Shown piece after piece: positions 5,083 through 36,648 of a stretch of 45,509 bases of DNA; position 1 is the stretch's first letter, and each line of letters begins with the position of its first letter. Below the pieces are notes generated by a model. That model worked only from the letters and a program-made list of their open reading frames with translations. It ran no database searches and had not been told where the DNA came from. The translations under genes were made by a program, and so were the position numbers. This DNA comes from Acidobacteriaceae bacterium (GTDB lineage: Bacteria > Acidobacteriota > Terriglobia > Terriglobales > Acidobacteriaceae), in assembly GCA_903642265.1 (NCBI GenBank), contig CAHJWN010000029.1, forward strand, positions 1 through 45,509, given 5' to 3'.

Positions 5083-5496
5083 ATGGCGGCGAAGAAGACA
5101 TACAACGTGGAACGTTTCTTTCAGGCTCTTGGAGATCACACGCGGCTCCGGCTGCTGAATCTGATGGGGGATCAGGAGATCTGTGTCTGCTACTTCGTCG
5201 AGATCCTCGGCGGTCCTCAACCGAAGATCTCACGGCATCTGGCTTACCTGCGAAGCGCGGGAATTGTCGCGGCGCGGAGGGAAAGCAAGTGGATGCACTA
5301 TCGCATCGTCATGCCACCGCACATCGGAGCCGCCCAGATTCTCAAGCAGACTCTCGGCTGGTTGAAAGAAGAGAAGGCCATGCAGGCGGACAAAGCAAGG
5401 CTTACGAAAGCCTGCTGCTCACCCTCGAAGTACGCCCTTCTTGAAGGCGCTCCGCTCCCCATTACGCTCGAAGTATCACCCTGTAAGGTTTGCTAG
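5083..5496 (+). CDS. arsR: ArsR/SmtB-family arsenite-responsive repressor
   Basis: Winged-helix repressor that leaves DNA when As(III) or Sb(III) binds. I chose the ATG at 5083 (137 aa, MAAKKTYNVERFF), since the in-frame ATG at 5065 and TTG at 5047 lie inside or before the operator palindrome. The ArsR domain is clear: FQALGDHTRLRLLNLM, then the metal-site helix EICVCYFVEIL with Cys34 and Cys36 (the CVC type of the E. coli family), then the recognition helix region PKISRHLAYLRSAGIV. The C-terminus is unusually cysteine-rich (KACCSPSKYA and a terminal CKVC), which may add a further thiol site. Its TAG stop shares a base with the GTG start of acr3, so the two form one operon. Confidence 0.93.
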   Translation: MAAKKTYNVERFFQALGDHTRLRLLNLMGDQEICVCYFVEILGGPQPKISRHLAYLRSAGIVAARRESKWMHYRIVMPPHIGAAQILKQTLGWLKEEKAMQADKARLTKACCSPSKYALLEGAPLPITLEVSPCKVC

Positions 5497-6098
5497 TGTC
5501 TTCAGCTCCCATCGCGCAAGGCCGCGCCTGTGCTCCGGCTACCCGCAAAAAGCTGTCGTTTCTCGACCGGTTTCCTTACACTCTGGATCTTCCTAGCGAT
5601 GGCCATTGGGGTTGCCATCGGCCATTTTGTACCGTCATCTGCCGGGTTCGTCAATCGCTTTCAGACCGGAACGACCAACATTCCGATTGCTATCGGGCTC
5701 ATGATCATGATGTTCCCGCCGCTGGCAAAGGTTTGCTACGAAAAGCTGGGTGAGGTCTTCCGCAACAAGCGCGTCCTTGGCCTGTCGCTCGTGCAGAACT
5801 GGATCATCGGACCGGTGCTGATGTTCCTCCTGGCCATCGTCTTCCTCAAGGGTGAACCTGCCTATATGCGCGGTCTAATCCTGATCGAAATCGCCCGCTG
5901 CATCGCCATGGTGCTGGTCTGGAATGAGCTTGCGGAAGGGGATACGGACTATGTTGCCGGGCTCGTGGCCATCAACAGCGTCTTTCAGGTGCTCTTTTAC
6001 AGCCTCTATGCCTGGGTCTTTCTGACTGTGCTTCCGAAGTGGTTCGGCTTAGAAGGAAGCGTCGTTCCTATCAGCATCGGTCAAATTGCGAAGAGCGT
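5496..6098 (+). pseudogene. acr3: Arsenite efflux permease Acr3, frameshifted and truncated
   Basis: Acr3 expels As(III) through a ten-helix membrane carrier. The natural start is the GTG at 5496 overlapping the arsR stop ([20 protein letters not shown]...FLDRF). One extra T in the TTT at 5571-5573 breaks the frame; removing it joins FLDRF to [20 protein letters not shown]. The following 170 residues are classical Acr3, including [20 protein letters not shown] and the helix [20 protein letters not shown] with the conserved substrate cysteine. Similarity stops after IGQIAKSV, where the sequence becomes a transposase remnant on the opposite strand. Roughly the last 40% is missing and is not found elsewhere in the window. 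The locus therefore keeps methylation and sensing but has lost this pump. Confidence 0.9.
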
Positions 6099-6295
6099 CG
6101 GCACGAACCTCAGCTGCATCAGCCTGCTGGTCGCGTCGTCGATGAAGACCAACAGCGTGCAGGGCTCGCCACGGTGCTCAAACCAGTCGACCAGCCACTT
6201 GCGCAAGGTCTCGCGCGACACCTCGATGCCATTCCGCTCCAGCAGCATCTCCGCCGCAAGCGTCGGACCGAAGTCACGGTAGCCGGCTCGATCCG
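6099..6295 (-). mobile_element. ISNCY-like transposase remnant (copy 1)
   Basis: The minus strand encodes [31 protein letters not shown], then [29 protein letters not shown], closely matching the transposase at 22807-23444. The copy is internally deleted: LRKWLV joins directly to WFEHRGEPC, so about 35 residues (the segment ADGLW to GSEH) are missing. It ends at the junction with acr3, at the same RLMQLRFVP point, just before the SES of the other copy. No terminal repeats are visible, so it arrived or was trimmed by recombination rather than clean transposition. Confidence 0.75.
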
Positions 6296-6444
6296 GATCG
6301 AGCTTCCCGGCGGCACCGTGGTTGCGGTCGACGGCAGCGCGGACCCCGCTTTGGTGCGCATAATCGTTGAGAGCCTGCGGGCATGATCGAGCTTCCATTG
6401 AAGCAGCATGGGGTCGTCACGCAGATCTGGATTGCGCGGGCGAG

Positions 6445-6655
6445 ACGGATAATTGGACGCTGCCCCTCCAGTCTTCGACGTAAGACTGATGATGGACCCG
6501 GTGGAAGTTGCCGTGACCGAAGAAGCCCGGTCGCCGTTGATAGCGGCTATCAGTGCAGAAGCGATCACGGGACTGCCAACGATGCCGCTCTTGCCGTAGG
6601 TCACCGTCTCAGCAACTCCGTTGACCGCCAAGGTAACGGTGCCGCCCCGCCGCAT
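6445..6655 (-). pseudogene. Scrap of an RHS/YD-repeat-associated or Ig-like surface protein
   Basis: The minus strand reads RRGGTVTLAVNGVAETVTYG, then SPVIASALIAAINGD, SSVTATSTGSIISLTSKTGG and AASNYP. This is the repeat module that I recognise from acidobacterial RHS-type and similar large secreted proteins (GTVTVTVNG..., SALASAINA..., GSTVTLTAKTTG...NY). Only about 70 codons remain, with no plausible start or rest of the gene, and the frame runs into unrelated sequence next to the transposase remnant. Confidence 0.5.
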
Positions 6656-6672
6656 AGCTAAAAGGAGCTTCC

Positions 6673-6944: not shown

Positions 6945-7536
6945 ATGTACAGAACAGAAGCCACACTCCGCAAGCTATTTACCGCACTTCCCGCACCAGG
7001 CTATAACCTTGGCATCCTCGGCGATCCCGGAATGAATCGCCTTGAAGCCGTGCCCTCGTCTCGCGTCCTCCGCATGATTCCCTATTCGAAGTACCGAAAC
7101 GCAAACGGCGCTCAAATCTACATGAGACCGACCGGCGAAAGCTGCTATACCCTGATGGACAATCTTACCCTTTCGCCCGTCTCGTCAGTCACCCCGGCCA
7201 ACCGTTCCCCGCAGCAAGGCCGTTCCGCTTGCAGCTTGACGCCACCCAGAAGAAAGCCGAGCAGCAACGCGCCGCCGCCAGTCTGAGCTTTGCTTCCCGG
7301 CCAGTGCGCACACCCGGTTCGGTCACACTCTCACGCTTCCGAACGTCGGCCCGCTACGCCGGTCCGCCAGCCGCCGCGGTATGGCTTTCAGCATTGCCGC
7401 TTGCGCTCAGGGGTGGGCCGAGTCCGAGATAGCCGCCGCCCTCGCCAAGGATTATCTTTCTCGTGACACCAGCCGCACACGCCAGGGCGCCCACATACGA
7501 CGAACCCTAAACAAAGCCCAGAAGTGGGCAGCTTAA
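6945..7536 (+). pseudogene. RepB-type DNA primase-like gene, decayed (copy A)
   Basis: The N-terminus (MYRTEATLRKLFTALPAPGYNLGIL, then SRVLRMIPYSKYRNANGAQIYMRPTGESCYTLMDNLT) is homologous along its length to the gene at 24525-25369. After codon 75 or so the middle third is missing and the frame changes. The end of the same protein is visible in other frames: AAASLSFASRPV, TLSRFRTSARYAG and finally EIAAALAKDYLSRDTSRTRQ to a TAA at 7536. Proteins of this type, with RPTGESCYTL-like primase cores, occur on plasmids and integrative elements, where they prime replication. The assignment to the RepB primase-like group is from motif memory and is moderate. Confidence 0.6.
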
Positions 7537-7755: not shown

Positions 7756-10700
7756 TTACTGGATTGTAAAAAGGAGTGGATTAGACGAAGATGCACCAGG
7801 ATTTACGGCCGTAATCGTCGTCGCTCCGATTCGAGCCAGATCACTTGCGGGGATGGCTACTGTCACGTGAGCGTTGTCGACGATGGTTGTGGTGCGGTAG
7901 CTTCCATTCCAAAGCACAGCTACTCCCGGAATAAAGTTTGTTCCCGTCAGCGTTAGCAGTATGTTTCCTGAACCTGCAGGAGCAGAGATGGATGAGGAGG
8001 TGGTGAGCGTTGCTGCCGAGTTGGCTGTGAGCAACTGCGGCACAATGCTCGCTCCACGTACTAGGTAGAGTCTGCCGGTAGCACTCAGGATGGCCAAGCC
8101 GTCCTGTCCCCAGCGGACCATGTCGACGCCGGAGAAGCCGGTCGTTGACTCCAGGGTCGAGAAAGGGATGGGAAGGCTGGTGACAGGCAGGAACGTCTGC
8201 GTGTTGTAGGCCGTGATCCCAGTTCGCGCCGAGGAGTACTGGCTGCTGGTGTTGAAGTAAAACGCTAGCCCCAAGGAAGAGTCTGCTGCGAAGTCCTTTG
8301 CTGGTGCAGCATAAGTAGTTCCATTCGTAGGCACATCTTCCACGACGCCCGCGGGTGTAGCAGTGGCGCCGGAAAGATTGGCGACAAGGCCGTTTTCTCC
8401 GTAGAGGGACGCGCCGTTCAGCTTGAAGCAGGCGGTGTATCCGACGCTTGTAGACGTGTAGTACGGATAAGAGCCGTTGGCCAAGCCGTTTGCTGTGACA
8501 GTGTAGTTTTCTACGACCGAGCCGCTGCCATAAAGATCGGTTGCAAACAGGTTCGCCGCCAGAGTAAACGCAAGGCAAGTCCCTGTATAAGTGCCGGTTG
8601 CAGTGCCTCGTCTTGTGGCCGTTTTTGCGGAGGTGTTGATATCGAAGATGGAGATGCCGGGGTATTCTCCTTCATCTACGGCGATCGTATTCTCCATTCC
8701 AGGTTGCGTTGCGATGTCGCGCAGACCGACGTTGTAGCCGGTTGCCTGAAAGCCTGTCGCGGAAAAGTCGGGTTGCTGGGTGAGCATGTTGAAGCGCGCG
8801 ATACTGCCGGTACTGGTTCCTGGAACCAGAGCATAGAGAATCTGGCCGTCGGAGGTGAGGGAAAGCACAGTTGGGGAGCCTCCAAGCACCACCGGAGCGC
8901 CTGCGGTTGCCGTATCAGGCGTGACCGCAAGGATGGAGTTACCAGCGATGGAAGAGGTACCAGACCCGATCCCTGCCATGATCTTGCGCGTGTACGGGTC
9001 GTACACAATATGGTTAGCGCCCAGGATCAGAACCGAGTACACGCTGAGTGGAAGCGAGGAGGATATACCTCCTCCGGGAGGTGCCGTGGATACGGCGATG
9101 CCTGCCCAGCCAAGCTGCGCCAGACTGGCTGCCGGCACAACGGCGGTGAGCATGGTGCTGCTGGCAAAGTTCGTGCTCAAGGCCGATCCCTTCAGCAATA
9201 CCGTGGAACCGCTATTGAAGCCAGTGCCGGTTACCGTCACAGTCGTATCTGCTGACCCACTGGCAACCAGCGAAGGACTAATTGAGGTAAGCGTGGGGGC
9301 GGCATAGTAAGGATTGCCTGTAATGGTGAGGGTCGAGGTCGCCTGATTGTTCGTGCTGAAAGGATCGGTCTCGGTCGCGCGGACCTGCGCGGTCATGGTC
9401 GCACTGCCGGCAGTCATCTGCTGCACCTTGAAGACGACGGTTGCCGAAGCGCCGTTGCTCAAACTTCCAAGATTGCAGAGCGCTGTTCCGGTCGTCGAGC
9501 ATGTTCCCGTCGAAGGCGTAACTGACGTAAGGACGCCGGATGAGGGCAAGAACGCTGCCAGAGCCACGTTCGACGCAGCAGACGGTCCATTATTGGTTAC
9601 TTTGGCAGTGTAGGTTGTTGTCGAGCCGGTCGTGTTTGTTCCGGACGAGGTAAGCATTACGCCAAGGTCGGCAGAAAGGGAGGAAATATCCTGTACCAAG
9701 CTGCTGTGAAAACTGACAAAGCCACCCGTACCGTGAAAAGCAAGACCATTGGAGCCCCAACGTGTAAGCCGCGCACCAACAGGACCCTGATATTGATAGT
9801 CAGCTCGGAAAGCAGGAATGCCGACAGAAAAAGGCGTAGTTCCGTTGAGGCTGCGGTCACTGGTGTTGAAGGCATAGATCTGCGTGGTAGCAGAATAATA
9901 ATTGACCGTGCCGGTTAGGATAAAAGCTTTACCGAGTGTTTGATCTACGGCGATCGATCCTCGCACCACGTTAGTTCCGTCGGTAGTGAACTGCCCCAGA
10001 AGCGCTCCCGATTCCGGGTCTGTAGCTTGGCCTAGCGACGTGTAAAGAATCCCTCCGGCCAGTTGAACATCGTCAGAGTTGTTAGCGCCATAGTTTAGGC
10101 TGGAAGCGGTCGATTGCTTCAGGGTCACCCCAGCCGAGGTGTAGCTATATGTGTTGTAGTTTCCGTTAATCTGGTAAACATCTCCGGGACCATAAATTTC
10201 ACTGCGAGTCCCGTCCACGATCAACGCGTAGGGAAAGGGGGCGTAAGTCGCGAAGCTGATGACCGACGGTCTGGCAGTGCCGTTATCGTAGATTGCCAGC
10301 GCAACTCCGGTGGGCGTGGTGTACCCGGTATAGTAGGTCGAAACGACTACAGAATCTGTTGCCCTGGAAGTGCGGCGAGAGCCGCGACGGTGGCGTTGCC
10401 AATAGAAAACTGCAGCCCCGCAGTTCCCGCCGTGAGATCGACTTTACGCACGGCAGCGGCGCCATCTAGCGCTACCCAAATGTATTTGCCATCGGAGGTG
10501 ATTGCCATGCGATTGGGCTCGCTACCTACCGGGATCGGCGTTCCCAAAGATCCTGTCACAGGATCGACGGACACAATTGAATTTCCATAGGGCGCACCAG
10601 CAGCGCTGGGAACGGACAGGTAGAACAAACCATTCACTGGGTTGTAGATCATACCGTTGTTGTAAATAGGCACATACGCGGTGATGTAAAGCGGTGCGGT

Positions 10701-12689
10701 CGTGCCGGATGCATTGGACACCGTGATGGATTCCACGCCCGGCGTCAGCACCGCTGAAGCTGGCAGTGTCACCGTCATCTGACTGGAATAGCTGTAGGTG
10801 GACGGAATGGTGACTCCATTGACGGCCACGGCGGTTGCCGAAGTAAAGTTGGCCCCGTAAAGGGTAAGGGTGGTAGCCGTCCGGACCGGTACGAGCGTTG
10901 ACGAAAGCGAGGTCAATGTCGGCGGTGGAGGGTTGATGATCGGCACAGAAAGCACGTTGGAAACCGATGGGGTAACGGCAGGATTGGTGACCGTGACCGA
11001 AGCTGTTCCTGCAATGGCAAGAAGGCTGGCCGGCAGATCCGTCACAAGATAGTAGCCGCTTGAACTGCTGAACCCGTACCCCGTCGTTAGAGAAACACCG
11101 TTCCATTGAATGGACGATCCAGGAACAAGATTCTGACCGTACACATAGAGATAGGTGGTGGCCGCTCCAGCTGTGAACTGGGTCGGCGAGGTCCGAGTAA
11201 TGACCGGTGTGGTGGCCGCGGCCGAGACAGTGAAGCTTGTCGCGGCTGAGACCCCACCAGAGGGCGCTGGGTTGAGCACGGAGATGGAATAGCTCCCTGG
11301 CGAAGCCTGCTCTGCAGCCGTGAGTTGAAAGACAAGCTCGTTGGAAGCATAAAAGCCCGTCAGACGGCTAACGCCCCCAACCTGAACGACAGAGTTTGGC
11401 AGGAAGTTCGATCCAACGACATAGACGTACAAAGGGTTGGGGCTGCCAGCTGGAACAAAGGTCGGGCTGAGATCGGAGATCACAGGCACCGGGTTGTTCA
11501 TCGTTATGGTGACAAACTGCGGCGAAAACGGCGAATCGGAGGCAACGCGCAGGTAGGCGAGACGTGGACCGGAGACCGAAGGCGTCAAAATTACCTGTGC
11601 GGTACAGGAACTGGAAGCTGCCAGTACCGCGCCACAATTGTTTGTAGCTGATACATCCGAGGCGTTTGTGCCTGCCGAGGCAATACTGCTCAGGGTAACT
11701 GGAAGCACACTCGTGTTCTGAATGGTGATGGTCTGCGCGGCTGAGGCCACGCCGACACTCCCAAGCGGGAAGCTGACGACGGTAGGCGTGATCTGTAACG
11801 CTGCTGTGCCGCTCGGAACTGGACGGATGCGAAAGTCCGCCGGTGCAGAGCTAAGAGAAGGCTGAAACGGTGCTGCTGGCGTGATCAACCCATAGAGAAG
11901 CGCCGTGTTAAGGGTGGGATTATTTGCCAGATACAGCAGAGACGCCACGGTATCGGTGGGTGCTGGAGAACTGCCGGGCGTCGTCAGAGAAAACATTTGT
12001 CCGCATAGCGAAGGCGTGTAGGACGCTCCGCCAGAGGAGTTGATGCAACTTGCCGTTACATTGGCCAGAGTGTTGATCAACGTTGTGGGAATGGTCGTTC
12101 CGACTGACGCTGTGAGCCCAGGCGATGTACCCGTGGCAGAGTTCGAGAACTGGTTTGCAAGAGTAAAGGCAGAAGCCAGTGCTGTAGCGTCGGAGGCCGA
12201 TGAGCCAACTGAAGATATAGAGCTCATGAACGGCGCGAGAGCGTTTACTGCCGCCACGGTCGTTACCTCGCTAACGGAGATAAACGTGGATGGGGTCAAG
12301 GCAGAGCAGGGCCCGAGAGCGACCATTTCTGCCAGATTGGGGTTAGTCGTCCCAATCCCAGGATTGCCGCCAACCGCCGTAAGATAGACCAGGGTCGCGC
12401 TGTTACAGGAATACAGAGAGGTAATATTGAACCCGCCGCCGCTATCTGTAGTGACAGTTTGTGTCAGCAGAGGAGTTGAAGCAGAACCATCAGACGAAGT
12501 TCCTACGGCATAAAGCTGAATGGTTGCGCCCGTGACCGGCTGCTGTCCTCCATGAACCTGGCCGCTAATCGTCACCGAGCGGCCGTCGTTCGATGTGCTC
12601 GGAGTGCTCAAGGTCGAGAGAGAACATCCAGAGAGCAGAGCACCTAAGACAGAGAGGAAAGCAATACGAGGGAGCCGATACGTACGCAT
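7756..12689 (-). pseudogene. Giant TIG/DUF11 surface lipoprotein split by one missing base
   Basis: Two long minus-strand frames (12689-10347 and about 10350-7756) form one gene. Adding one G to the GGG run (plus strand 10362-10364) turns LPG-QQIL-stop into LPGATDSVVVST and gives 1645 whole codons. The start is ATG 12689; MRTYRLPRIAFLSVLGALLSGC carries a lipobox (LSGC), so the product is a lipoprotein. Visible in order: a carboxypeptidase-regulatory-like strand block (near 35-110), an Ala/Ser-rich helical part, a choice-of-anchor-D type domain (near 300-400), three TIG/IPT domains (near 400-680), a YVTN-like propeller, a DUF11 domain (TYTAKVTNNGPSAASNVALA), another TIG domain, a second propeller part and a final TIG-like unit. 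It probably acts in adhesion or cell-surface structure. I cannot tell a real mutation from a sequencing error; the frame is otherwise open for 4.9 kb, so any decay is recent. Confidence 0.8.
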
Positions 12690-12891
12690 GGAGGGTCCTG
12701 ACCAAAGCTGTTGTGTTGGTGCAGAAAGTATATCCTTCCGTCGCAATGATAGGGCGTTCGCACTCTCGCTTTCAGCAGTATTCAGTGCATTTACCGGAAC
12801 AGACGTTCCAATTGGAACGGGATGAGTATCGACAAGTCGCAAAGCGGAAGTAGTACCGCTCCACATCCTTGGGTCACCGAGTTCGATCGTC

Positions 12892-13025
12892 CTAACTCAT
12901 GTCCAAGCCGATCGCATCATTTACCGCATGAGCCAGGGCCTGCTCCGTTCCGAGATAACGCTCCGTCGTTTGGATCGATGCATGCCCAAGCGAGAGCTGT
13001 ATCTGCTCCAAGTCAAGCGCCGCCA
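12892..13025 (-). pseudogene. Tyrosine recombinase (integrase) C-terminal fragment
   Basis: The minus strand reads LEQIQLSLGHASIQTTERYL followed by GTEQALAHAVNDAIGLDMS and a TAG stop at 12892. LGHASIQTTERYLG is the final catalytic box of XerC/phage-type integrases, with the nucleophilic tyrosine in TTERY. Everything upstream (the Arg box, Lys and the N-terminal DNA-binding domain) is missing, because at about 13025 the sequence switches to parA on the other strand. It is a deletion remnant beside the plasmid genes. Confidence 0.8.
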
Positions 13026-13510
13026 CATGGAAGGATCTCCGTGAAGACGACGCGCCAGTCGTTCAACCTGCACAGGTCAATCGACTGGGCGTGATACTCC
13101 AGGAAGCCCTTAAACAAGGTGCGGCCTTTGCGGTGATTGACACTTCCCCCAACTCTGAAAGTGCGTCGCTTGCCGCAGCTCGTGCGGCTGACCTTGTCTT
13201 GATTCCATGTCGTCCTCACCTGTTGGACCTTAAAGCAATTGGCTCCTCGATTGAGCTGGCGCGGCTTGCAAAAAAGCCGTTTGCAGTCGTTGTCAATGCG
13301 GTTCCTCCACGTGGTCCGCTCGGTGCCGAGGCAAACGCCGCAATTGCCACTTACGATGCACCTATTGCACCGGTGACCCTCTCCATGCGAGTTGCTTACT
13401 ACCACTGCCTGGTGAACGGCCAAGTTGCGCAGGAATATGAACCGCTCGGCAAGGCGGGCGAAGAAGCTTTTGAGTTGTACAAGTGGGTCCGTAAACAAGT
13501 AGGCATGTAG
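13022..13510 (+). pseudogene. parA: ParA-family partition ATPase, C-terminal half only
   Basis: The in-frame sequence WKDLREDDAPVVQPAQVNRL, then FAVIDTSPNSESASLAAARA, ADLVLIPCRPHLLDLKAI and VVVNAVPPRG matches the second half of ParA/Soj ATPases, including the Walker B-like VIDTSPN. The first part with the deviant Walker A lysine (KGGxGKT) is absent; homology begins abruptly at about 13022, where an integrase fragment on the other strand ends. A GTG at 13091 could start translation, but the product could not bind ATP normally. A ribbon-helix-helix gene follows 138 bp downstream, the normal order for a type Ib partition cassette. Confidence 0.85.
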
Positions 13511-13648: not shown

Positions 13649-13954
13649 GTGAAACGCAATTCGATGGCACAAGCTTTGAGTCAAGCAGCGGGGCACTCGT
13701 TTTCCAGACCGCCGGTCAGGCCAGTTCACGCGGCCATGGACGCGGAAAAGGACCGCGAAAGCCGCACCCCTAGTCTGGCCAGGTCCGTCGCACCCTCACG
13801 CGCAGGTAAAAAGCCTGTCACTGGCTTCTTCGACCCAGAAGTATCTCGGCAGATCAAAAAAGTGGCGCTCGACAAAGACCGGACTATGCAGGAACTTCTC
13901 CAAGAAGCTATTAACGACTTTTTTCGAAAGTATGATCTCTCTCCTATTGCATAG
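13649..13954 (+). CDS. Ribbon-helix-helix partition protein (ParG/ParB-like)
   Basis: A GTG at 13649 with CAGGAG just upstream gives 101 aa. The N-terminal half is basic and disordered (SRPPVRPVHAAMDAEKDRES, ARSVAPSRAGKK). The C-terminal half is a clear ribbon-helix-helix: strand KKPVTGFFDPEV, helix SRQIKKVALDKD, turn R-T-M, helix QELLQEAINDFFRKY. This matches plasmid partition adaptors, which bind centromere repeats and stimulate ParA through a mobile N-terminus. It lies between two clusters of ACAAGT/ACATGT repeats, and parA is directly upstream but truncated, so partition is presumably inactive. This gene itself looks intact. Confidence 0.8.
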   Translation: MKRNSMAQALSQAAGHSFSRPPVRPVHAAMDAEKDRESRTPSLARSVAPSRAGKKPVTGFFDPEVSRQIKKVALDKDRTMQELLQEAINDFFRKYDLSPIA

Positions 13955-14014: not shown

Positions 14015-14836
14015 ATGTCCACAAAACTCAGAACGATAGAAGTGAGTGCCGCTGAGCCGGAAGCTTCAAAGAAGCTGGTGGCACGAGACCGGGCCGCAGA
14101 GAAACGCGTTGCAAAAGGGAAGCAGGCTCTGCGCCTCGGCCAACTTCTCGACGACCGAAACACCGGCAAGCTCGGCGACGAGGTCATCAAGATTGCACAG
14201 GCGATGCTCCTGTGCACGCTGCCGTACAGCGCAACCAATGAAAACCACATCACCCGAACTGCACGGCTTGGGGATGGATCAACGCTTACGGTCACTTTCA
14301 GCACGGGAATCCCGATGTGCCGCTGCCCTTTGGTTCAGATCGCAAACTGCTTGCATGGGTGTTCGACCGCGCGATCAATTCTGAATCCTCAATGATTGCC
14401 TGGGAATCGGCGTGGGAGTACCAGAAGGAGATGGGCTTGAAGCGTCCGGCAAAACAACAAAGACTTGCGGGAGCGATTCCACCGCATAAGCGGCCTCAAC
14501 ATCAACATCGAGCGGAAAGACTCTACCGGAATAGCCGGCAAAAACTTCTCCATTATTGACACCTACAATCTTCCCCCGTCTGTTAGTGGACAGAAACCAA
14601 ATCCGGACCAGCGCAGCCTTGGGTATGCCGACGAAACTCCGGAACTGCCGACAGCACCCTTTGGCATCAGCATCAACCAAACGTTGTTTCAGGACATTCG
14701 GAAGCATTACGTTGCTGTCCCGCGCGCCCTCTGGCTGCAGTCGAAAGGCAACTCTCAAGTTCAGGACGTGGTCCTTTGGCTTTACTACCGATGTTATGGA
14801 GCCAAGACAGAATCTGTGATCCCTTGGTCTGCTCAA
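14015..14836 (+). pseudogene. repA: Plasmid replication initiator RepA, frameshifted and cut at its C-terminus
   Basis: The sequence follows the RepA_C-type plasmid initiator: LPYSATNENHITRTARLGDG STLTVTFSTGIP, then DVPLPFGSDRKLLAWVFDRA and AWESAWEYQKEMGL, then NNKDLRERFHRISGLNINIE, APFGISINQTLFQDIRKHYV AVPRALWL and VQDVVLWLYYRC. Two frameshifts interrupt it: one base is missing in the CCC at 14311-14313, and one base is extra near 14445. After TESVIPWS, at about 14836, the sequence continues directly into a relaxase gene, so the C-terminal tail is lost. The ATG at 14015 has no strong ribosome site. Such initiators bind iterons at the plasmid origin. Order parA-RHH-repA is typical of a low-copy plasmid core. 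Confidence 0.82.
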
Positions 14837-16311
14837 CCTATGACCCGCGCCGACTTCGCGGCGTCAACGTCTACCGCGAGACCACACGCGAGTTTGCGAC
14901 CGGCGACCGCATCCAGTTCACCGCGCCGGATAGAAACTTTGGAGTCGCCAACCGCGATCTGGGAACCGTCACGAGCCTTGAGGACGGGAAGATTGCCGTC
15001 CGCCTTGAAGGAAAAGAGGGACGCGCCGTTACGTTCGACCCGAACGAGTACCGGCAGTTTGACCACGGCTATGCCGTGACCTCGCACAGCTCCCAAGGGC
15101 TTACGGCTGGCCGGGTCATCGTCAATATCGACACCGATTCAGTGCGGAGCCTCATCAACACCCGGCTTGCCTACGTCTCCATCTCTCGCGCTTCGGACGA
15201 TGCCCGCGTTTACACAAATAACGCCGAGACTTTGGGCGAAAGGCTGGCAACCGACATCACCAAGACCGCCGCCGTGGACTTCCGTCCGCCCAGCCCCACC
15301 GAGCAAGCGCGTGAGGCAGTCCAGGCGTTTCGAGCGAACGAACCGGGCAAGGCCACGGACATATTGCAGGAGCAGGGAAGGGTCTATGAATACGCAAACC
15401 CGGACAGCCGACTCGCCGCCGTTGCGATCGACTACGCCGCCCGGCCCGACCGCACCGTGATCGTCGCGCCCGATGCCGCCGACCGGCAGGAGCTTACACA
15501 GCTCATCCGCGCCGACCTCCAGGCGCAGGGACGTATCGGAGAGGAAAGCCACTCCGTTCCCGTCCTGGTCGAGCAGAATTATACAAACAAGAAGCTGGCA
15601 GTCAACTACCAAATTGGAGATGAGATCCACTACAAGACGGGCAGCCCGACCGCCGAAGGGATTCCAAACAACAGTGCGGCCACGGTGCTTTCGGTGGACG
15701 GCAATAAGAACCTCCTCACCGTCGAGACGCGGGAGGGCGAGCAGGTTTCCTACAACCCCGCGCAGCTCAGAAGGCAGACCGCCGAGAGTACCGTCTACCG
15801 CGAGGAGAGCCGCGAGCTGGCCGAGGGAGACCGGATCAGCTTCACTACCGCCGACCGCGAGAACCGCGTCAGATCAGGGGACTTCGCCACCGTCGAGCGG
15901 ATCGGGGAGGACAACTCCATTTCAGCCAGGCTGGACAGTGGGCGAGCGGCCGAGTTGGACCCGGAAAAGGCCCGGCACATCGACTATGGCTACACCGTCG
16001 AAAGCGCCCAGCATCTCTCCGCAGACCGTCTTATCTTGACGGGAGAAAGCAGCCAACTCGCGGGCCAGCAAGAGGCTCTGACCAGGCTTAATCCTCATAC
16101 CCGCGAGGTTGGAATCTACACGTCGAATGGCTCGAACCCCTTGCAACAGGCGCAGGGAATCGCTACTGACGTGCAGCTCGCAGAGGAAGGTTTCTCCATT
16201 GATTCAGGTTCCAGCAATATGCCGGAGCCGACACTCCCTGAAATTGATCTTGAGGGCTTCGGACTCTACACCGCACAACCGCCCGGGGCTCAGTGTGACG
16301 ATTATCACTGA
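14837..16311 (+). pseudogene. MobF-type conjugative relaxase/helicase (TraI/TrwC), C-terminal part only
   Basis: From YDPRRLRGVNVYRETTREFA onward the sequence is the end of a TraI/TrwC protein: motif VI of the RecD-like helicase is visible (RQFDHGYAVTSHSSQGLTAG), followed by LINTRLAYVSISRASDDARV YTNN. After the helicase come two further repeats of the same fold, each with a YREESRELAEGDRISFT-like unit and a HIDYGYTVESAQHLSADRLI-like unit. The relaxase domain with its tyrosines and the Walker A of the helicase are absent. The frame is open for 490 codons without any stop, in contrast to its neighbours. A chimeric start inside repA (14776) could in principle be translated, but the product would have no nicking activity. 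Confidence 0.85.
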
Positions 16312-16548
16312 ATAGGAAGAAATCGGAACCGCCATTAGCCGAGTAGTGATGTCCTGGGTTGCTTTCATCGCTACTCTGGTTACCAAGGCTGCCTTTCTCG
16401 GCTTTCTTGTTTGGTGTGTGTTGAAGCACGAAGATGTTGCGGCCAGATTGTCGTCGAGGTGATTTGATAGCTTTCTGTTCATCTGCTTCGCATCATCTTG
16501 AAACACGTCTTCTCCTGGGGAGGACCTGCAATCAGGTTGGCGTGGCCG

Positions 16549-17309: not shown

Positions 17310-17669
17310 GGGTGAGTCCTCCGTTTTTGAATGGCTTTGCTGTGTTTGCTCACGAATACGCCTTGGCCCTGGCCCTGGCCCACGCCAGCGATGGTAGCAA
17401 ATGCAAGAGCCGGATTCCTTTTCCGAAGGGCGGCCGCAGGCCGGTCTGCACAAGCGAAGCGCGGAAGATAAAGGTGGCTCTTGCGCGCGGAATAGATGGC
17501 TTCCCGGGGCGTTGCGGGTGTCCCCACAGAGGTGGCTTTTTAAAACACTACAACCATGAGAAGGAAAAGTGTTCAGCTGCGCAATTTAACTTGACTAACC
17601 GACGTCCAGCACGACACACAATCCTAATCCAGTAACTTGCCTCCACTCTGTCGGGCTTTGGAAGAGCTT
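17310..17669. other. Intergenic stretch between ardC and a decayed secreted-protein gene
   Basis: No gene is supported here. It should contain the promoters of the two divergent pseudogenes. One visible detail is three tandem TGGCCC units at 17364-17381. The sequence TTTTTAAAACACTACAA near 17537-17553 is locally AT-rich. Confidence 0.5.
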
Positions 17670-22783: not shown

Positions 22784-22806
22784 CTAACGGGATGGGACTT
22801 GTCCAG

Positions 22807-24466: not shown

Positions 24467-24524
24467 CCCGGCAGGGGGGCCACGCGGCCCCCTCGCTTTC
24501 AACAACGCAGAGCCAGGTGCAGCC

Positions 24525-25369
24525 ATGGACAAGACAGAACACACTATCCGCCAGCTACTCGCCGCACTTCCCGCCCCGGCTACGATATCGGCGTCCTCAC
24601 CAATGCAGGGATGTATCGCGTCGAAGCCGCGCCAGCTTCCCGCGTCCTGCGCATGCTTCACTTCCTCAAGCATCGCAACGCCTACGGCGCACACATCTAC
24701 CTACGCCCAACCGGAGAAAGCTGCTACACCCTGCTGGACGATCTCACCGCCGCTATCCTTCCCCGCCTTGCAGCCGAAGGCTACGCACCCGCCGCCGTGG
24801 TCGAGACAAGCCTTGACAGCTTCCAGGCTTGGCTTAGGCACACGCAGCCGCTTTCCAAAGAGTTTGGCACCCTCGCCGCCAAAATCCTCGCAGAACGGTT
24901 CAGCGCAGATCGCAGCGCCGCTGACTGGCGCAGGTTCGGTCGTGCCCCCGGCTTCACCAACCGTAAGCCGCAGCACCGCAACCCGCAGGGCTTTTACCCG
25001 TTCGCCCATCTTCGCAGTTCTACCGGAACAGTCTTCCCCGAAGCCGACGCCTTCCGTGCCCGATTGCTTACGCTCCAGCAAAAGACAGAAGCAGAACGCG
25101 CCGCCGTGCGTCTCAGCTTCGCAGCTCGCCCCTTCAGCCGGTATGCCGCGCCCGTCATGCTGTCGCGCTTCCGTTCGTCGCCGAACTACCACGGACGGCC
25201 AGCCGCCGCAGATATGGCCTTCTGCATCGCCGCCGTCGCTCAAGGCTGGTCCGAGTCCGACATCGCCGCCGCACTCAGCCGCGAATACCTCTCTCGCAAT
25301 GCCAGCCGCTCCCGCCGAGCCGCCTACATCCGTCGCACACTTTCTAAAGCCATCCTGTGGGCAGCCTAA
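24525..25369 (+). pseudogene. RepB-type DNA primase-like gene with one frameshift (copy B)
   Basis: ATG 24525 begins MDKTEHTIRQLLAALPAP. One G is missing at 24578-24579; adding it restores GYDIGVLTNAGMYRVEAAPA and gives 282 whole codons. The rest is open: SRVLRMLHFLKHRNAYGAHI YLRPTGESCYTLLDDLTAAI, LSKEFGTLAAKILAERFSAD, ADWRRFGRAPGFTNRKPQ and AAALSREYLSRNASRSRRAA YIRRTL. GRAPGFTNRKP is the type of motif seen in RepB-like primases of plasmids and integrative elements. Translation could also begin at the in-frame ATG 24611, giving 252 aa. Copy A at 6945-7536 is the same gene in a more decayed state. A GC hairpin (GGGGGCC-ACGC-GGCCCCC) lies just upstream of the start. Confidence 0.65.
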
Positions 25370-28479: not shown

Positions 28480-29075
28480 AGACCTCAACCCTAAAGAAAA
28501 GCTGCGAATGCAAGCTTTGCAATATCTAAGCAGTCGGTCTAGGGCTGGGAACCGCCAGGTAATAGCAACCGCGCGCATGGTGGCACTCTCACCGCGCGGA
28601 GGATGCTCGGAACGGCAACTTGCATGTTAATATGGCGCCCGTTCTAAGGTCCTGATAAACGCTGTTCTGGGAAGTTGAGGATGCGGCCCTCACCATCGGA
28701 ATGCAGCATTGCGCCCAGGCCATAGCTAGCGGCGGCGACAGTAGCCGAAGGTCGCTAGGCTGATTCTGAGGTTTGTCACAGGGCTAATCTTCCGGTCCAA
28801 TCGGTTGAGTCCAGGTCTAAGCACATTCTCCTTTATGCACGGTCATTCGGTCACCGCGCCGGTGCTGGTAGCTGCGCCCTGCGGCTTTGCGGTCAGAACT
28901 CACGTTCCGCGCCCTGACGGGTTTCGGCCTCCTCCTCCAGCCATGATGCCGGCCGGGTCCCCACTCCGAAAACTTCTGCTCTTGGCAACGCGGCTACGCC
29001 GCGACTTGGGAGCAGCGCACCTTGCGCCCCTTCGGGTTGTGTGTCCCGAGTGACCGGGCAAAAAGGAGAAACACC
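28480..29075. other. Non-coding or fully decayed stretch of about 600 bp
   Basis: I see no supported gene, tRNA or IS end here. The right part (28830-29060) is GC-rich and lies directly upstream of the ssb-like gene, whose leader it probably contains (AAAAAGGAG at 29060-29068). The rest gives no readable protein in any frame longer than about 30 codons. Confidence 0.5.
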
Positions 29076-29373
29076 ATGCAGACCTTCAAGACCATCACTT
29101 TCTTCGCCACCGTCAGCAACTCAGCCTCCAGCCGCACCTCGAAGAACGGCCGCAATTACACCGCCTTCGGGGTCTCCATCCTCTCCGACGACCGGCACCA
29201 GACCTTCCACTACAATGTCGTCGCCTTCGGCAAGCAGGGGTCACTTCGCTAAACCGCTGCAGAAAGGCACCTGCATTAAGCTGGTCGTGCAGGCACAATC
29301 GGAGCCCGATAACATCGCCACTCTCCCTCTTCTCACTGCAACCTTCGTGCGGCCAGTTCGATTGGCCGCATGA
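29076..29373 (+). pseudogene. ssb: Single-stranded DNA-binding protein-like gene with one extra base
   Basis: ATG 29076 follows a good AAGGAG. The text MQTFKTITFFATVSNSASSR, TSKNGRNYTAFGVSILSDDR HQTFHYNVVAFGKQG fits an OB-fold ssDNA-binding protein of the plasmid type. One extra G in the GGGG at 29237-29240 then gives a premature stop; removing it continues with HFAKPLQKGTCIKLVVQAQS EPDN and ends at 29373, giving 99 whole codons. It is shorter than chromosomal SSB and lacks the acidic tail, as often in element-borne copies. It belongs functionally with the primase gene of the same island. Confidence 0.6.
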
Positions 29374-30531: not shown

Positions 30532-32561
30532 GTGATCCTTTTGCGAGTGCGAAAAATCGTCAGCCTTGGAGTTCTTCTGGTTTCGACGGCAGGAATTTCC
30601 GCCGTTGCCGGCGCTCAGAGCGTGCCGGCCAGCTCCTCGGACTGGACGAGCTATGGCGGAACACCGCTCGGTCAGCATAACTCTCAGCTAAGCCAGATCG
30701 ACCAGTCGAACGTCTCGCGCCTCGGTGGGCTGTGGACATTTCACACGGGCACGACGAGCGACTTCACCTCATTCGAGGCAGCACCCATCGTCTCCGGCGA
30801 TACGCTGTACGTCACTGACCCGCATAGCAGCGTTTTCGCGTTGGACGCTGTGACCGGAAAACAGCGATGGTCGCACACGCCTGTCTATGGCGATCTGGGG
30901 AAGCTGCCGCTTTGTTGCGCGCAATCCAACCGTGGGGCCGCGGTGGGCGGTGGCATGGTCTTCGTCTCGCAGCTCGATGGAAAGCTCACCGCTCTGGATC
31001 AACGCACCGGTAGCGTTGCGTGGTCAGTCATCGTTGGGGAGCCGAGCAAGGGTTATTCGGGCACCGGCCCACCGCTCTTTCACAATGGCCGGGTCTATGT
31101 GGGGGTCGCCGGAGGAGAGTTCGGAGTTCGCGGATACTTCACGGCCTACGAGGCGTCCACCGGGAAGCAGCTTTGGCGCTTCTATACCGTGCCCCCTCCC
31201 GGAACCAAAGGACACGAGACCTGGCCTGCTGGCGACGCGTGGGAACACGGCGGAGGCGCAGTCTGGACGGCGCCCGTACTCGACGACAAGCTTGGAATGA
31301 TCTATTTCGTTACCGGCAATCCAAGCCCCGATCTCAACGGCCATATTCGCGCGGGCGATAACCTTTACACCGACTCTATCGTCGCGCTGAATCTCGCGGA
31401 CGGAACGCTGAACTGGTACTTTCAGGAGATTCACCACGATATCTGGGACACCGACCCGTCGAGCCCGCCGGTTCTCTTCGATATGGTCGTCGACGGCAAA
31501 CCTGTTGCAGCGATTGCGCAGGCGGGCAAGATCGGATGGCTGTACTTATTCGACAGGGCGACTGGAAAGCCCCTGAAGCCGATCGTCGAACGGCCGGTTC
31601 CGCAGGACGCATGGCAGCATACCGCGGCAACGCAGCCCTATGTTGAAGGTGACGCTTTCGTGCCGCAGGCCTGTACGGACCAGCTCGCCGCTTTCCCCAA
31701 TTCGGGAAACCTGTTCGCACCCGCGAGTCCGGGCCACCCGGCAGAGCGTTGCCCTGGTGGCAACGGCGGCTCGGAGTGGTCGCCCGTCTCGCATGACCCG
31801 AAGACGGGATACCTGTTCGTCTGCGGCATCGACGAGCCCCAGGTATTTGCCGTGCACGGTGCGGCTGAAGCGCCCGGAAAGGAACGTCTCGGCAGCATCT
31901 GGACGCGCGTTCCGGGAGGACATTACTCGGGTACGCTGACGGCCATGGATCCTCGAACGAACAAGATCGCGTGGCAGAAGAAGACCGATAACATGTGTGT
32001 CGGCGGGTCGCTTGCCACTGCCGGAGACCTGGTATTTATCGGTGACGGCAACGGTGAGCTGCGCGCCTACAACACTAACAATGGCGACTTGCGCTGGAGC
32101 TTCCAAACGGGGCCGGCGTCAATGCGCCTCTCATCACCTACGCCGTCGGCGGCAAGCAGTACGTCGCGGTCGCCTCTGGCGGGAACTGGCAGCTCAATTT
32201 TCCGCGCGGCGATACGCTCTGGGTTTTCGCGCTCGACGGCAAGCTGCTTCCCGTCGCGGCACAGGCCGTCGAGCCCAGAACGGTGGTTACGGTGGAAGTG
32301 AGTCTGAAGACTACAGGCTTCGTGCATTCCCGGCAGGTCATAAAGCCAGGAACGGAGATCACCTGGACCAACGACACGAAGGCCATCCAGCATGTCGATT
32401 CGCGGCTCGGCGCGTGGCACTCCGGTCCAATCGACCCCGGCGAAACGTACTCGCATATCTTTAGATTGGAAGGCACCTTCGACTATGTCGACTCGGTCTT
32501 GCCTTCGCTGCTTGGAACGATCATCGTGTCGAAGCATGCGGGAAAGGCTGGGGGGCAATAG
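30532..32561 (+). pseudogene. PQQ-dependent dehydrogenase with cupredoxin-like tail, one missing base
   Basis: Periplasmic quinoprotein of the eight-bladed propeller type. The GTG at 30532 or one at 30547 opens a signal peptide (KIVSLGVLLVSTAGISAVAG AQS). PQQ features: W-docking repeats (ALDAVTGKQRW, ALDQRTGSVAW, AYEASTGKQLWRF), the vicinal cysteines in PLCCAQSNRG near residues 128-129, and HHDIWDTDPSS near 302-312 with the catalytic Asp. One G is missing in the GGGG at 32109-32112; adding it joins SFQTG to AGVNAPLITYAVGGKQYVAV ASGGNW and gives 677 whole codons. The last 90 residues form a cupredoxin-like domain (PGTEITWTNDTKAIQHVDSR, FDYVDSVLPSLLGTIIV) in which the usual Cys, second His and Met ligands are Asp, Leu and Leu. 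There is no cytochrome c domain. The substrate is unknown. Confidence 0.82.
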
Positions 32562-32598: not shown

Positions 32599-33288
32599 TT
32601 ACAGGCCGTTGTCTGTGGAAGGTACACCCTCACAGGCTGGCGACGTAGGCCAGCATGCGCGCAAAGCCTGTAAGCCAGTTCGAATCCTTGTCTTGATCGT
32701 CCCGAGCGGCACCCCGCTTGCCCGAGCGATCTCCGCATGCGTACATCCTTCAAAGAAGGCCATTTCCAACGCTGATCTCTGTACCTCCGGGAGCCCAGCG
32801 ATCGCCGAACGTGCACGCCCGATTAGAATAAGGTGCTCAGCGTCGTCCGCGACGTTGTGAGGCATCGCAAGGGGCATATCCTCGATCGGATACATTGGGC
32901 GTCGTTGCCGAAGAATGTCGATCGAGCGATTTCTAGTGATGACGGCCAGCCAGCCACACAGGCCTCCACGTACCGCAGTGAAGGCCCCAGGGACCCGCCA
33001 CATTTGCAGGTAAACCTCCTGGAGCACGTCTTCCGCTTCGCATGGATCTCGCAGGATTCGCAAGGCGACGGAATAGACGAGCTTGGAGTGAAGGTCGAAA
33101 AGGCGGCTGAGTGCGTTTTCATCGCCCTGCTGGACTAGAGCCATCAGCAGCGAGTCTGGATAAGAAGATGAGGTATAAAGCTTGTGACTTTTCCCGGTTG
33201 CCAAATTTGCGAGCTCCGGGACAGGTGGAAATGGATCATCTTGAAATGCGTCAGGGATCATATCCGAAACAGGGAAGGTGGTTAGCAT
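32599..33288 (-). CDS. ECF-type RNA polymerase sigma factor (SigK-like)
   Basis: 229 aa from ATG 33288. Region 2 is clear (ALSRLFDLHSKLVYSVALRI LRDPCEAEDVLQEVYLQMWR), with the WLAVITRNRSIDILRQRR end of sigma-2. Region 4 follows (LPEVQRSALEMAFFEGCTHA EIARASGVPLGTIKTRIRTG LQALR). The N-terminus has about 45 extra residues before region 2. SigK-like ECF factors are normally followed by a membrane anti-sigma gene; here the next gene is the convergent PQQ dehydrogenase 37 bp away, so the anti-sigma partner is absent. Targets are unknown. Confidence 0.9.
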   Translation of the reverse strand: MLTTFPVSDMIPDAFQDDPFPPVPELANLATGKSHKLYTSSSYPDSLLMALVQQGDENALSRLFDLHSKLVYSVALRILRDPCEAEDVLQEVYLQMWRVPGAFTAVRGGLCGWLAVITRNRSIDILRQRRPMYPIEDMPLAMPHNVADDAEHLILIGRARSAIAGLPEVQRSALEMAFFEGCTHAEIARASGVPLGTIKTRIRTGLQALRACWPTSPACEGVPSTDNGL

Positions 33289-33380
33289 TATGGACGGCTC
33301 TCAAAGGTTGACAGGACGAACGAACGCCGAAGAAAGGGTCAGCGAAGGCTATACGGCGATCATCTTGTTCTGTTGGCCGG

Positions 33381-33598
33381 TTATGCAGCGCTTCCGATGC
33401 GGTTTACTTTGTCCGCCTGCGGGCCTTGCTTGCCTTCGATGATGTCGAAGTGACTTTATCGCCCTCTTTTAGGCTCTTGTAGCCGTCGAGCAGGATTGAA
33501 CTGTAATGCAGAAACACATCCGGGCCGCCCTCACGACCCACGAACCCGTAGCCTTTCCCGTTGTTGAACCACTTCACTTCGCCAGTGTGCTGTGCCAT
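33381..33598 (-). pseudogene. Cold-shock protein, CspA family, with one missing base
   Basis: ATG 33598 with AGGAGG seven bases upstream. The cold-shock domain is standard: [20 protein letters not shown] with RNP1 (KGYGFV) and DVFLHYSSI as RNP2. At 33449-33451 one T is missing: [16 protein letters not shown] replaces [20 protein letters not shown], which can be read to a TAA at 33381 after the base is restored (73 whole codons). The natural end is typical of Csp proteins, so the gene was functional until very recently, or the base is a sequence error. Confidence 0.85.
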
Positions 33599-33953
33599 AA
33601 ATTGCCTCCTATCCTTCTCGATAATCGACATCGAACCACGCCGTGATGCAGATCTCTCGGCAGCGGGTGCTTCTTACGGGAGCTTGAAGACAAGCAGTCA
33701 AACGAAGAAGTAGAAAGCTGCGCCGAACAACAATGCTAGCCTTGGCGCAATGTTCCTAGCGTTCCGCCCGGGTGGTCCCCTGTTTAGGTCGAGAACTGAC
33801 CGTACTTGCGATTCTCACGTGCGGGGAAGTTGTCGTGTGTTCTGTTTTGTATATGACATAAGAAACTTCCTGATACACAATGAAGAAGTCTGCCAGCTGA
33901 TCGTTACTGAACCAGCACGCCAAACGATCCTGTACCGAGAACGGACACGCCAA
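33599..33953. other. Divergent region between csp and the Crp/Fnr gene
   Basis: It contains the csp leader and the promoter of the Crp/Fnr gene. The frame of the regulator is open through much of it, but the sequence there (from about 33750) does not resemble the regulator family, so I read it as leader rather than coding. Confidence 0.45.
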
Positions 33954-34607: not shown

Positions 34608-34837
34608 ACTTCCGCAATCATCCAAAGAAAGCAAATCGAGATCTGACCCGCTGGATTTTTCTGTTTACGCTGTCAGTTGGGCCGCGTTCCAGGAATCTTC
34701 CGGAAAGGGGCAGGCCTGATCTCTCTCTGGTGTACCAAATCGAACAGCGCGACTCCTTAAACAACGCCATGCTTGGGCCAGCTAGAACTACAGCCGGCCG
34801 TGCGGGTCGCTGATAGGTTTGGCGATCAGGTGTCGAG

Positions 34838-35095
34838 ATGATGTGCGTTGGCGGATCCAAATTAAAACGACAGTACAAGACCGCGGCAGATGATCGCGAG
34901 ATGGCGAGAGATATCCTCCTCACCTCTTCTGTCAGGCACCACAAGGTTCACGACCTTCCATTCGACGATCTAATGTTCGTTGCAAAGCAGCGGTACAGCG
35001 AGGCTCTTGTTGCGTGGGTTACGCACCGCGAAACGTGCGCAGAATGCCACGCTCTCTACGGGCAGGATGATCAAGTGCAGTTCGCGTCCGTCTAA
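34838..35095 (+). CDS. Small hypothetical protein with a CxxC motif
   Basis: 85 aa; the end VAKQRYSEALVAWVTHRETC AECHALYGQDD reads like a real protein, with CAEC as a possible metal or redox site. The N-terminal 30 residues are basic (GGSKLKRQYKTAADDREMAR). I know no family. It is 80 bp upstream of the response regulator on the same strand and may be co-transcribed. Confidence 0.4.
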   Translation: MMCVGGSKLKRQYKTAADDREMARDILLTSSVRHHKVHDLPFDDLMFVAKQRYSEALVAWVTHRETCAECHALYGQDDQVQFASV

Positions 35096-35175
35096 GGCAG
35101 TCCCCCGTGAGATAGACCCCTCACTTCACATTAGCCCCGGCGCCACCCAGTTGTTGAATGGAAAGAGAGCCACGA

Positions 35176-36066
35176 ATGTCGAGCGATCAAGCCGCCATAA
35201 ACGAATCCTCATCGGATCAAGTGCCAGCAATACTTCCAAAACTTTTACTCGTTGACGATAACGAAACGATACGATTCACACTTTCCAAGATTCTAGAGAA
35301 GGAAGGGTTCTCTGTTGCGACTGCAGGGAATGTCAATGATGCGATCAAGCTAATTGGCGATCAGTCCTTCGATGCTCTCTTGAGTGATCTGCATATGCCC
35401 GGAGCTGGAGACGGTCTCACCGTCGTCAGTGCCATGCGGCACTTCAACCCAAAGGCCGTCACCATCATCTTCTCCGGTTTTCCGGAGATGAAGGAAGCTG
35501 CCGCCGAGATCCTGCTGCAGGCGGACGAAATCCTTGTCAAGCCGATGTCCCCGCCGGTCCTGATCCAGACGATCAAGGACCGTCTCAAGGCCGGAGCTTC
35601 CAGCACCGCACGCGTCACCCAGACGGTTGCTTACATTCTGGAGCACGACACGCAGGTCACCATCGATGACTGGCTCTCCCGGGTCGATGACGAGCCTGAA
35701 GTGATCACGGTAAGGCTATCCTCAAAAGATCGTTGTGCCCATCTCCCTCACCTCTTCGCGGACCTGGTTTCTCGTCTTCGCAAGCCGCTTCCGCTGGGGA
35801 CACGTGCCCTGATTTCGCCCGCGGCGGCCGCTCACGGTCTCTGCCGACGTGAGCAGGGGTATACCGCCGCGATGATCGTCGAAGAATCGCGGATGCTGCA
35901 GGTGAGCATGTTTCAAACGCTCCAGAACAATCTTCACCAGGTGGATTTCAGCCTCTTGCTGCTGGGCGTCATGGCCATAGCTGATGAAGTCGATTCGCAG
36001 CTCGCTCAAGCGATGGCCAGCTACATCGCCGAATCGAAGATTGATCTCTTGCCGGTCGAAGCTTAA
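35176..36066 (+). CDS. Response regulator with an uncharacterised C-terminal helical domain
   Basis: ATG 35176 (296 aa). The receiver domain is complete (residues 16-135): acidic pair in LLLVDDNE, phosphorylation Asp in ALLSDLHMPG, Ser in IIFSGFPEM and Lys in EILVKPMSP. The C-terminal 155 residues are not a DNA-binding domain: VAYILEHDTQVTIDDWLSRV, LPHLFADLVSRLRKPLP, AAAAHGLCRREQGYTAAMIV EESRML and DFSLLLLGVMAIADEVDSQL AQAM. This resembles the helical RsbRD/sensor N-terminal domain type (IxxxWxxxV...GY....lv.E.r.L), which suggests signalling by protein contact rather than DNA binding. No histidine kinase is adjacent. Confidence 0.8.
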   Translation: MSSDQAAINESSSDQVPAILPKLLLVDDNETIRFTLSKILEKEGFSVATAGNVNDAIKLIGDQSFDALLSDLHMPGAGDGLTVVSAMRHFNPKAVTIIFSGFPEMKEAAAEILLQADEILVKPMSPPVLIQTIKDRLKAGASSTARVTQTVAYILEHDTQVTIDDWLSRVDDEPEVITVRLSSKDRCAHLPHLFADLVSRLRKPLPLGTRALISPAAAAHGLCRREQGYTAAMIVEESRMLQVSMFQTLQNNLHQVDFSLLLLGVMAIADEVDSQLAQAMASYIAESKIDLLPVEA

Positions 36067-36226
36067 CACGCCAAGCTACCACGTCGTCTGCACTCACCTC
36101 GGCCGCGTACATGCCCGCACCCTTCCAAGGAACTGCCTCAGGAATGAGATCGGTCATTCGGCAGAAGCGCGTGCCGGAGCCGTTCCCTCCCCCCGACCCC
36201 TCCGTTAAGAGCGGCGTGCCAACCCT

Positions 36227-36648
36227 CTATCTCTCGAAGAGGGGAACCTTCTCAGCGGGAAGTCCCGGGCTGCTGAAGTTCAAAGCTGCCTGTTCGTGTC
36301 CCTTGGGATGCTGCTCTCTCCACAAGACAAGCAAAAGCGCCGGCCACTCCGTCATCACGGCCATCGTTCGATGCACTCTCGCGTGACAGGCAGGGCAAAG
36401 CGAGATCATCAGGTGCGAAACGGACTTGCCGGTTATGCGGTGATGCACAATGATTGAGCGCTTGTTGCGCCAGAAGCGTCACAGACCCGGCAGCGATAGC
36501 CGTCCCGTTCGAGCACCTTTTCTCGCAATCCACCGAAGTGCTCTTCATCCTGCCGCTTCAACGTGTAGCAGGTCGCACACAGGCCATGCGCCAGAACCTT
36601 CTGGTTCCCGCACCGGCAATGCAAAACCTGCTGCACATTCCGCTTCAA
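36227..36648 (-). pseudogene. HNH endonuclease, one frameshift
   Basis: The minus strand begins at ATG 36648 (KRNVQQVLHCRCGNQKVLAH GLCATCYTLKRQ), a zinc-ribbon-like N-terminus. The HNH domain follows: RDGYRCRVCDASGAT, then, after one missing base near 36455, KRSIIVHHRITGKSVSHLMI SLCPACHARVHRT, with both CxxC pairs and the HH of the HNH core. The C-terminal tail (EWPALLLVLWREQHPKGHEQ AALNF) is shared with the fragment at 3932-4068. Small HNH proteins of this kind are typical of mobile DNA; the broken frame suggests that it is inactive. Confidence 0.7.

Follow-up and report, generated by a model that had tools for sequence, protein, structure and literature searches.

The stretch of DNA analyzed here, called the window, is an entire contig of 45,509 bases (C29; CAHJWN010000029.1) from the assembly of a soil acidobacterium of the Acidobacteriaceae (GCA_903642265.1; 4.64 Mb, 196 contigs, 94.74% complete, 5.66% contaminated). 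About 31 kb of it (~5.5–36.6 kb), called the island, is pieced together from plasmid, transposon and accessory genes. Judged from sequence comparisons, the region between 4 and 37 kb is probably a decaying mosaic of Granulicella-type plasmid, insertion sequence (IS) and accessory genes on which selection was relaxed only recently. The assembled sequence shows frame breaks and truncations in this region; the assembly's core contigs and the flanks of the island were clean, and intact copies of acr3, mobF, the primase gene and the cold-shock gene (csp) were found elsewhere in the genome. The indels are probably present in the DNA of the cells as well.

Frame changes were located by protein-to-DNA alignment of homologues with frameshifts allowed. 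An accepted reference was available for 16 coding units of the island, and a total of 15 frame changes was found in 11 of them. For the units that have a close relative at the DNA level (acr3, ISNCY, primase, HNH, ssb), a one-base difference causes the frame change. The five units free of frameshifts are parA, its small neighbour, mobF, a sigma factor gene and an IS3 transposase gene, which has stops. An 845-amino-acid frame at 18570, with only a 40% partial match, and frames without any match were left out of the counts.

The arsenite efflux gene acr3 (5487..6111, plus strand) changes frame at 5573. The gene of a RepB-type primase (24468..25366, plus; Pfam RepB_primase) is broken at 24579 and shows 87% amino acid identity to an open copy on contig C140 of the same assembly, and a second RepB-type primase fragment (6945..7536, plus) combines an internal deletion with a frame change at 7379. 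In ssb (29061..29370, plus; weak Pfam SSB match below the cut-off), the break at 29240 was determined with references from two relatives. The gene of a PQQ-dependent alcohol dehydrogenase (30534..32561, plus; Pfam PQQ) was aligned with three homologues and is interrupted at 32113, beyond which the homology runs to the gene end. The cold-shock gene (33379..33600, ends approximate, minus) is shifted at 33451 and has three intact paralogues in its own genome. A gene labelled HNH in the first-pass annotation (36230..36654, minus), for which no family match was obtained here, changes frame at 36468 relative to its copy on contig C22 of the same assembly and to the copy of a relative. The gene of a TIG/DUF11 repeat protein (7756..12693, start approximate, minus; Pfam DUF11), which that annotation had labelled a lipoprotein, is split into two frames at 10361–10364; its relatives in genomes G013 and G005 have open frames of 1479 and 1777 amino acids, respectively. 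The replication gene repA (14030..14830, plus), with 50% identity to RepA of Granulicella tundricola pACIX904, has frame changes at 14309 and 14442. For the antirestriction gene ardC (16544..17505, minus; Pfam ArdcN on one piece), three references were aligned, and four frame changes (17133, 16843, 16745 and 16686) and an in-frame stop at 16796 were found; a fifth change at 17314 appeared with the G011 reference only and was left out of the count. The breaks fall into layers, with several lesions in ardC, where the damage looks older, and a single one in each of acr3, TIG, ISNCY, ssb, PQQ, csp and HNH. All sites named in the first-pass annotation were recovered with an offset of 0 to 4 bases, except for the HNH site (13 bases) and the second ardC site, which lies 4 bases from the stop and 43 bases from the nearest counted frame change; the break at 7379 was absent from its list.

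To compare the frequency of frameshifted genes, every set was run through a single pipeline under identical rules, with references predicted by a coding model. Frameshifts were detected in 5/9 genes of the island (8 frame changes), in 0/7 genes of the flanks, with arsM among the seven, and in 0/29 genes of the assembly's own core contigs (20 stretches of 20 kb, 29.7 kb aligned). Own accessory contigs yielded 3/42, and, since these were picked for sharing DNA with the window, intact copies may be over-represented there. The remaining values were 0/20 for contig C10 of G024, 4/27 for plasmid-like stretches of relatives and 0/42 for the finished chromosome of G. tundricola. In Fisher tests, the island differed from own core (p = 0.00025), own accessory (p = 0.0024), the relatives' plasmid-like stretches (p = 0.026) and the flanks (p = 0.034; p = 0.044 when arsM was removed, 0/6). 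A spurious antisense row at 5104–5349 was dropped from the flanks. Rows with less than 50% identity or fewer than 50 residues were removed from the sets (own core 7, own accessory 4, G. tundricola 7, window 3), and none of these contained a frameshift. With curated references, 11/16 units of the island were frameshifted (p = 4e-7 against own core); 5/9 is the fairer count, because the references for repA, TIG, csp, HNH, PQQ and the primase fragment were picked with knowledge of the claim. Thus, it was confirmed that single-base frameshifts are concentrated in the island and absent from both flanks, as the first-pass annotation had proposed, and the core and accessory contigs sampled from the same assembly did not carry an equal load.

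A scan of coding potential with a hidden Markov model (HMM) agrees with the homology counts. It placed 8 frame switches in the window (45.5 kb), 20 in own core (400 kb), 11 in own accessory (137 kb) and 55 in the G. tundricola chromosome (800 kb), where the counts include gene overlaps in all sets. Five of the switches in the window lie near confirmed breaks (10352, 14277, 14491, 23035 and 32089), and the others are located near the join of repA and mobF (14859), in scrap (6399) and at a gene overlap (43128). Only the unfiltered comparison was used, because a start-codon filter, which left 2 of the 8 switches in the window (own core 4, G. tundricola 14), discarded true breaks too. The first homology scans were likewise set aside, as stop-to-stop references with upstream extensions gave false breaks or the filters were too strict. 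In an earlier scan of own core, 0 frameshifts were found in 40 genes, but 10 in-frame stops occurred in 3 genes (references of 44–61% identity).

The damage goes beyond frameshifts. The acr3 remnant has lost the last 168 of 377 residues and ends at residue 209 (positions 7–179 of 327 of NCBIfam TIGR00832, below the cut-off), where it is fused at ~6102 to a scrap of an ISNCY transposase gene (6096..6282, minus) with an internal deletion of ~105 bases relative to a copy on contig C120. A second ISNCY remnant (22747..23382, plus) comprises residues 22–233 of 441 with a frame change at 23053 and matches positions 75–184 of 368 of NCBIfam NF033594, below the cut-off; other ISNCY places in the assembly are 50–82% identical. 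The partition ATPase gene parA (13010..13510, plus) lacks the first 46 residues and starts at residue 47 of 212 (positions 40–202 of 203 of NCBIfam NF041546, below the cut-off). Residues 1–631 of the relaxase/helicase gene mobF (14833..16295, plus) are missing, so that it starts at residue 632 of 1111; the remaining frame is open, is joined directly behind repA (junction 14831) and gave partial NCBIfam TraA/TraI matches. An IS3-family transposase gene (21441..22441, minus; positions 211–369 of 369 of NCBIfam NF033516, below the cut-off) has in-frame stops at 22129 and 22381 and a frame change near 22306. In the blind pipeline, truncated genes amounted to 4/9 in the island versus 2/29 in own core (p = 0.02), 3/42 in own accessory (p = 0.013) and 4/42 in the G. 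tundricola chromosome (p = 0.025). Base-calling errors cannot produce such truncations. Misjoins would leave the missing parts of acr3 and mobF elsewhere; no orphan remainder of either gene was found in the assembly, which counts against misjoins.

The left boundary of the acquired stretch was revised. A methyltransferase gene (4121–5065, minus; Pfam methyltransferase) and a small gene (~5083–5496, plus), which we take to be arsM and arsR, are intact. Since they share an arsenic cassette with acr3, the acquired stretch begins at ~4.1 kb and not at 5.5 kb, where the first-pass annotation had set its limit, while the genes between 4.1 and 5.5 kb are indeed unbroken. The cassette (4121..5496) shows 87% DNA identity to contig C35 of the same assembly. 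Among the places listed, acr3 is complete on C35, C18, C157 and C13, and C156 and C132 carry two halves of one copy, which overlap each other and are 77–81% identical to the acr3 of the window. Including the broken one, the genome thus has six acr3 copies, four of them complete, among these places.

Places similar to mobF exist on eight other contigs; over the parts that overlap the copy of the window, their identity to it is at most 91%. The copy on C47 is full-length, and alignment with it gave 92%. Together with the window, MobF genes are distributed over nine contigs of one assembly (C47, C9, C132, C18, C76, C108, C35, C68 and C29), and six of the copies have open frames of 1160–1232 amino acids. 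Such a spread points to a large number of plasmids or integrated elements within a single genome or bin.

Genes for plasmid replication, partition and mobilisation are present in the island; repA, mobF and ardC have plasmid relatives, and parA and the RepB primase were recognized by family models. A plasmid backbone of Granulicella type (parA, repA, mobF, ardC, RepB primase, ssb), the IS remnants, the arsenic cassette and the accessory genes were probably acquired horizontally. Part of it would have been present in several copies, as the other places listed for acr3 (six), MobF (eight contigs) and the cold-shock gene (three) suggest. Selection on many of the genes in the block was probably relaxed recently, with these copies present, and one-base indels, deletions and truncations would then no longer have been removed. 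Redundancy is a plausible cause of the tolerated losses; it does not obviously cover the TIG protein or the PQQ dehydrogenase, and a search of the genome for copies of the TIG gene found only the window. The block is assembled from truncated elements and need not stem from a single integration event. Relaxed selection on an acquired block, as suggested by the first-pass annotation, is therefore retained as the best reading in a narrower form, in which the relaxation is only recent and acquisition in one step is not implied.

Several observations weigh against this reading. The ratio of non-synonymous to synonymous substitution rates (dN/dS) does not reveal relaxed constraint in the broken pieces (0.014 to 0.29). 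It was 0.014 for acr3 downstream of the break (60 synonymous and 4 non-synonymous changes in 176 codons), and the comparison with a relative gave 0.05 and 0.06 for ISNCY, 0.14 for mobF and 0.20 for the downstream piece of the primase gene. The short upstream pieces of acr3, primase and ssb had values of 0.26 to 0.29, which are noisy owing to their length; the comparisons of parA and the small gene beside it were saturated. For arsM and arsR, which are neighbours without breaks, the ratio was 0.048 and 0.060, respectively. With such low values, most of the divergence arose under selection, and the breaks are either young or false; decay demands that all of them be young. In addition, 10 of the 12 damaged units carry frameshifts without nonsense changes, ardC carries both and IS3 only stops; plain decay would be expected to yield somewhat more nonsense, and such a scarcity has a chance of 0.05 to 0.27 if shares of one third and one fifth are assumed. 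Several genes of the block are intact, so the relaxation was not uniform. Finally, the 10 younger-looking sites outside ardC and the primase fragment have a mean longest run of 3.0 within 6 bases (p = 0.03), in a split that was made afterwards.

That the breaks are errors of sequencing or local assembly, with the contig or island built from few reads or a strain mixture and affected by false one-base indels and false joins, is unlikely, and some probability was kept for it because of the low dN/dS, the homopolymer lean and the few nonsense changes. The lesions for which a close DNA relative allowed a check involve a single base, the broken pieces look freshly conserved, and fragmentation into 196 contigs and the contamination of the assembly point the same way. 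Deshayes et al. (2007; PMC1852416) attribute a significant proportion of the interrupted genes of one published genome to sequencing errors. The first-pass annotation had located many of the breaks in short homopolymers and had left such error as a doubt. Over all 15 sites, the longest run within 6 bases averaged 2.67, compared to 2.48 over the island (p = 0.21), i.e., there was no excess; only the mild lean of the younger-looking sites supports that claim, the other five sites having a mean of 2.0. Slippage in the cell would explain this lean just as error would. The own core contigs came out clean in the same pipeline, ardC combines several lesions with a stop, and the other halves of the truncated acr3 and mobF were not found in the assembly, all of which speaks against an artefact.

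The contig ends bear on the same question. De Bruijn assemblers of short reads typically leave adjacent contigs with an overlap of exactly k bases, and one-base indel errors are rare in such assemblies. When 60 contig ends and a few others were compared, exactly 77 bases were common at both termini of C123/C2 and C140/C35, 76 bases, five bases from one end, were common to C132/C156, and four other pairs showed longer, imperfect similarity. The exact 77-base overlaps suggest a short-read assembly, and together with the clean core contigs they make the homopolymer doubt less likely, with the mild lean of the younger-looking sites still standing. By the same overlap, C140 with the open primase gene seems to adjoin C35 with a complete acr3 in the assembly graph. 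In a search for the same population elsewhere, the best relative of the PQQ dehydrogenase among 8000 candidates scored was 77% identical, and a scan of genome contigs, from which the window's own genome may be excluded, gave none.

Two further explanations were weighed. That some of the frame changes are programmed recoding sites in functional genes is extremely improbable. IS3 elements normally use a programmed frameshift, and the frame change near 22306, at the usual place in such elements, may be of this kind. The homologues of acr3, primase, ssb, PQQ dehydrogenase, csp, TIG and ISNCY, however, have a single open frame across the site, and acr3, ISNCY and ardC are truncated as well. It is also very unlikely that, in place of gradual decay, a local mutational process produced the one-base indels in a burst. 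In its favour, the first lesions checked are one-base and young, and acr3 broke only during the final few percent of its divergence from the closest complete copy. Against it, the block also contains deletions, fusions and stops, ordinary relaxed selection requires no special process, and plasmid-like stretches of relatives have frameshifted genes too.

Known systems close to the island are plasmids and failed horizontal transfers. The plasmids of G. tundricola MP5ACTX9 (NC_015058 pACIX903, NC_015059 pACIX904 and NC_015060) and of Acidisarcina polymorpha likewise carry relatives of RepA, the MobF relaxase and ArdC, and pACIX903 additionally has a RepB-family primase gene near that of ArdC. In contrast to these plasmids, the genes of the window are truncated or frameshifted and lie on one contig between flanks of chromosomal type. 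The island resembles the failed horizontal transfers in prokaryotes described by Liu et al. (2004; PMC522871), where frameshifts, stops and truncation disrupted acquired transposase- and plasmid-type genes that lie between intact ones. It differs from the cases given there by many young single-lesion genes in one block and by few nonsense changes. In a literature search on Granulicella plasmids, pseudogenes and mobile elements, the portion of a review that was available (PMC7661733) describes no such island, and a search on indel errors in metagenome assemblies found no paper. The island looks like a good case of a phenomenon already known, in which acquired DNA meets its ordinary fate and is seen at an early stage, and it overturns nothing known. 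It would provide an early snapshot of the death of plasmid-derived and redundant genes in an acidobacterium from soil, for which complete paralogues of the same genome serve as a yardstick. Core-gene controls and contig-end overlaps can be used to judge between decay and sequencing error where no reads are at hand.

Other genes of the island are open. A small gene beside parA (13649..13954, plus), presumably CopG-like, shows 70% identity to the gene beside parA on contig C8 of G003. An ECF-type sigma factor gene (32599..33288, minus) is intact and frameshift-free, and open genes of a Crp-type regulator (33750–34607, plus) and a response regulator (35158–36066, plus) follow, all three with Pfam matches. 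No Pfam family matched the intact 845-amino-acid frame at 18570–21107 or two overlapping open frames of 415 and 178 amino acids at 26027–27783.

In the left flank, the genes of an FG-GAP/UnbV_ASPIC protein (2–1726, plus) and a trehalase (1731–3821, minus) are open with Pfam matches, the latter being frameshift-free in its alignable piece. The right flank begins with an open, frameshift-free gene of a PF03601 protein (37006–38055; Pfam), which we assume to be of the YeiH type; a relative of this gene on contig C9 (~25318–25946) of the same assembly seems frameshifted. The rest up to 45509 comprises genes of a KdpD N-terminal-type protein, PhoH, a gene at 42673–43128 and a CorC-type protein, with Pfam matches and without frameshifts. 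The first part of the 904-amino-acid minus-strand frame at 38216–40930 is probably spurious, as the KdpD domain begins at residue 548, and a plus-strand frame opposite (~39368–40804) has a relative. A search of the window for tRNA genes found none. DNA related to the right-hand 12.5 kb was present in 61/61 genomes searched. Among the places listed, and without a systematic test, the two flanks lie far apart or on separate contigs in G011, G022, G023, G030 and G032. Short imperfect palindromes were observed at 16808–16850 (86%), inside the broken ardC, and at 21508–21543 (94%), inside the IS3 copy.

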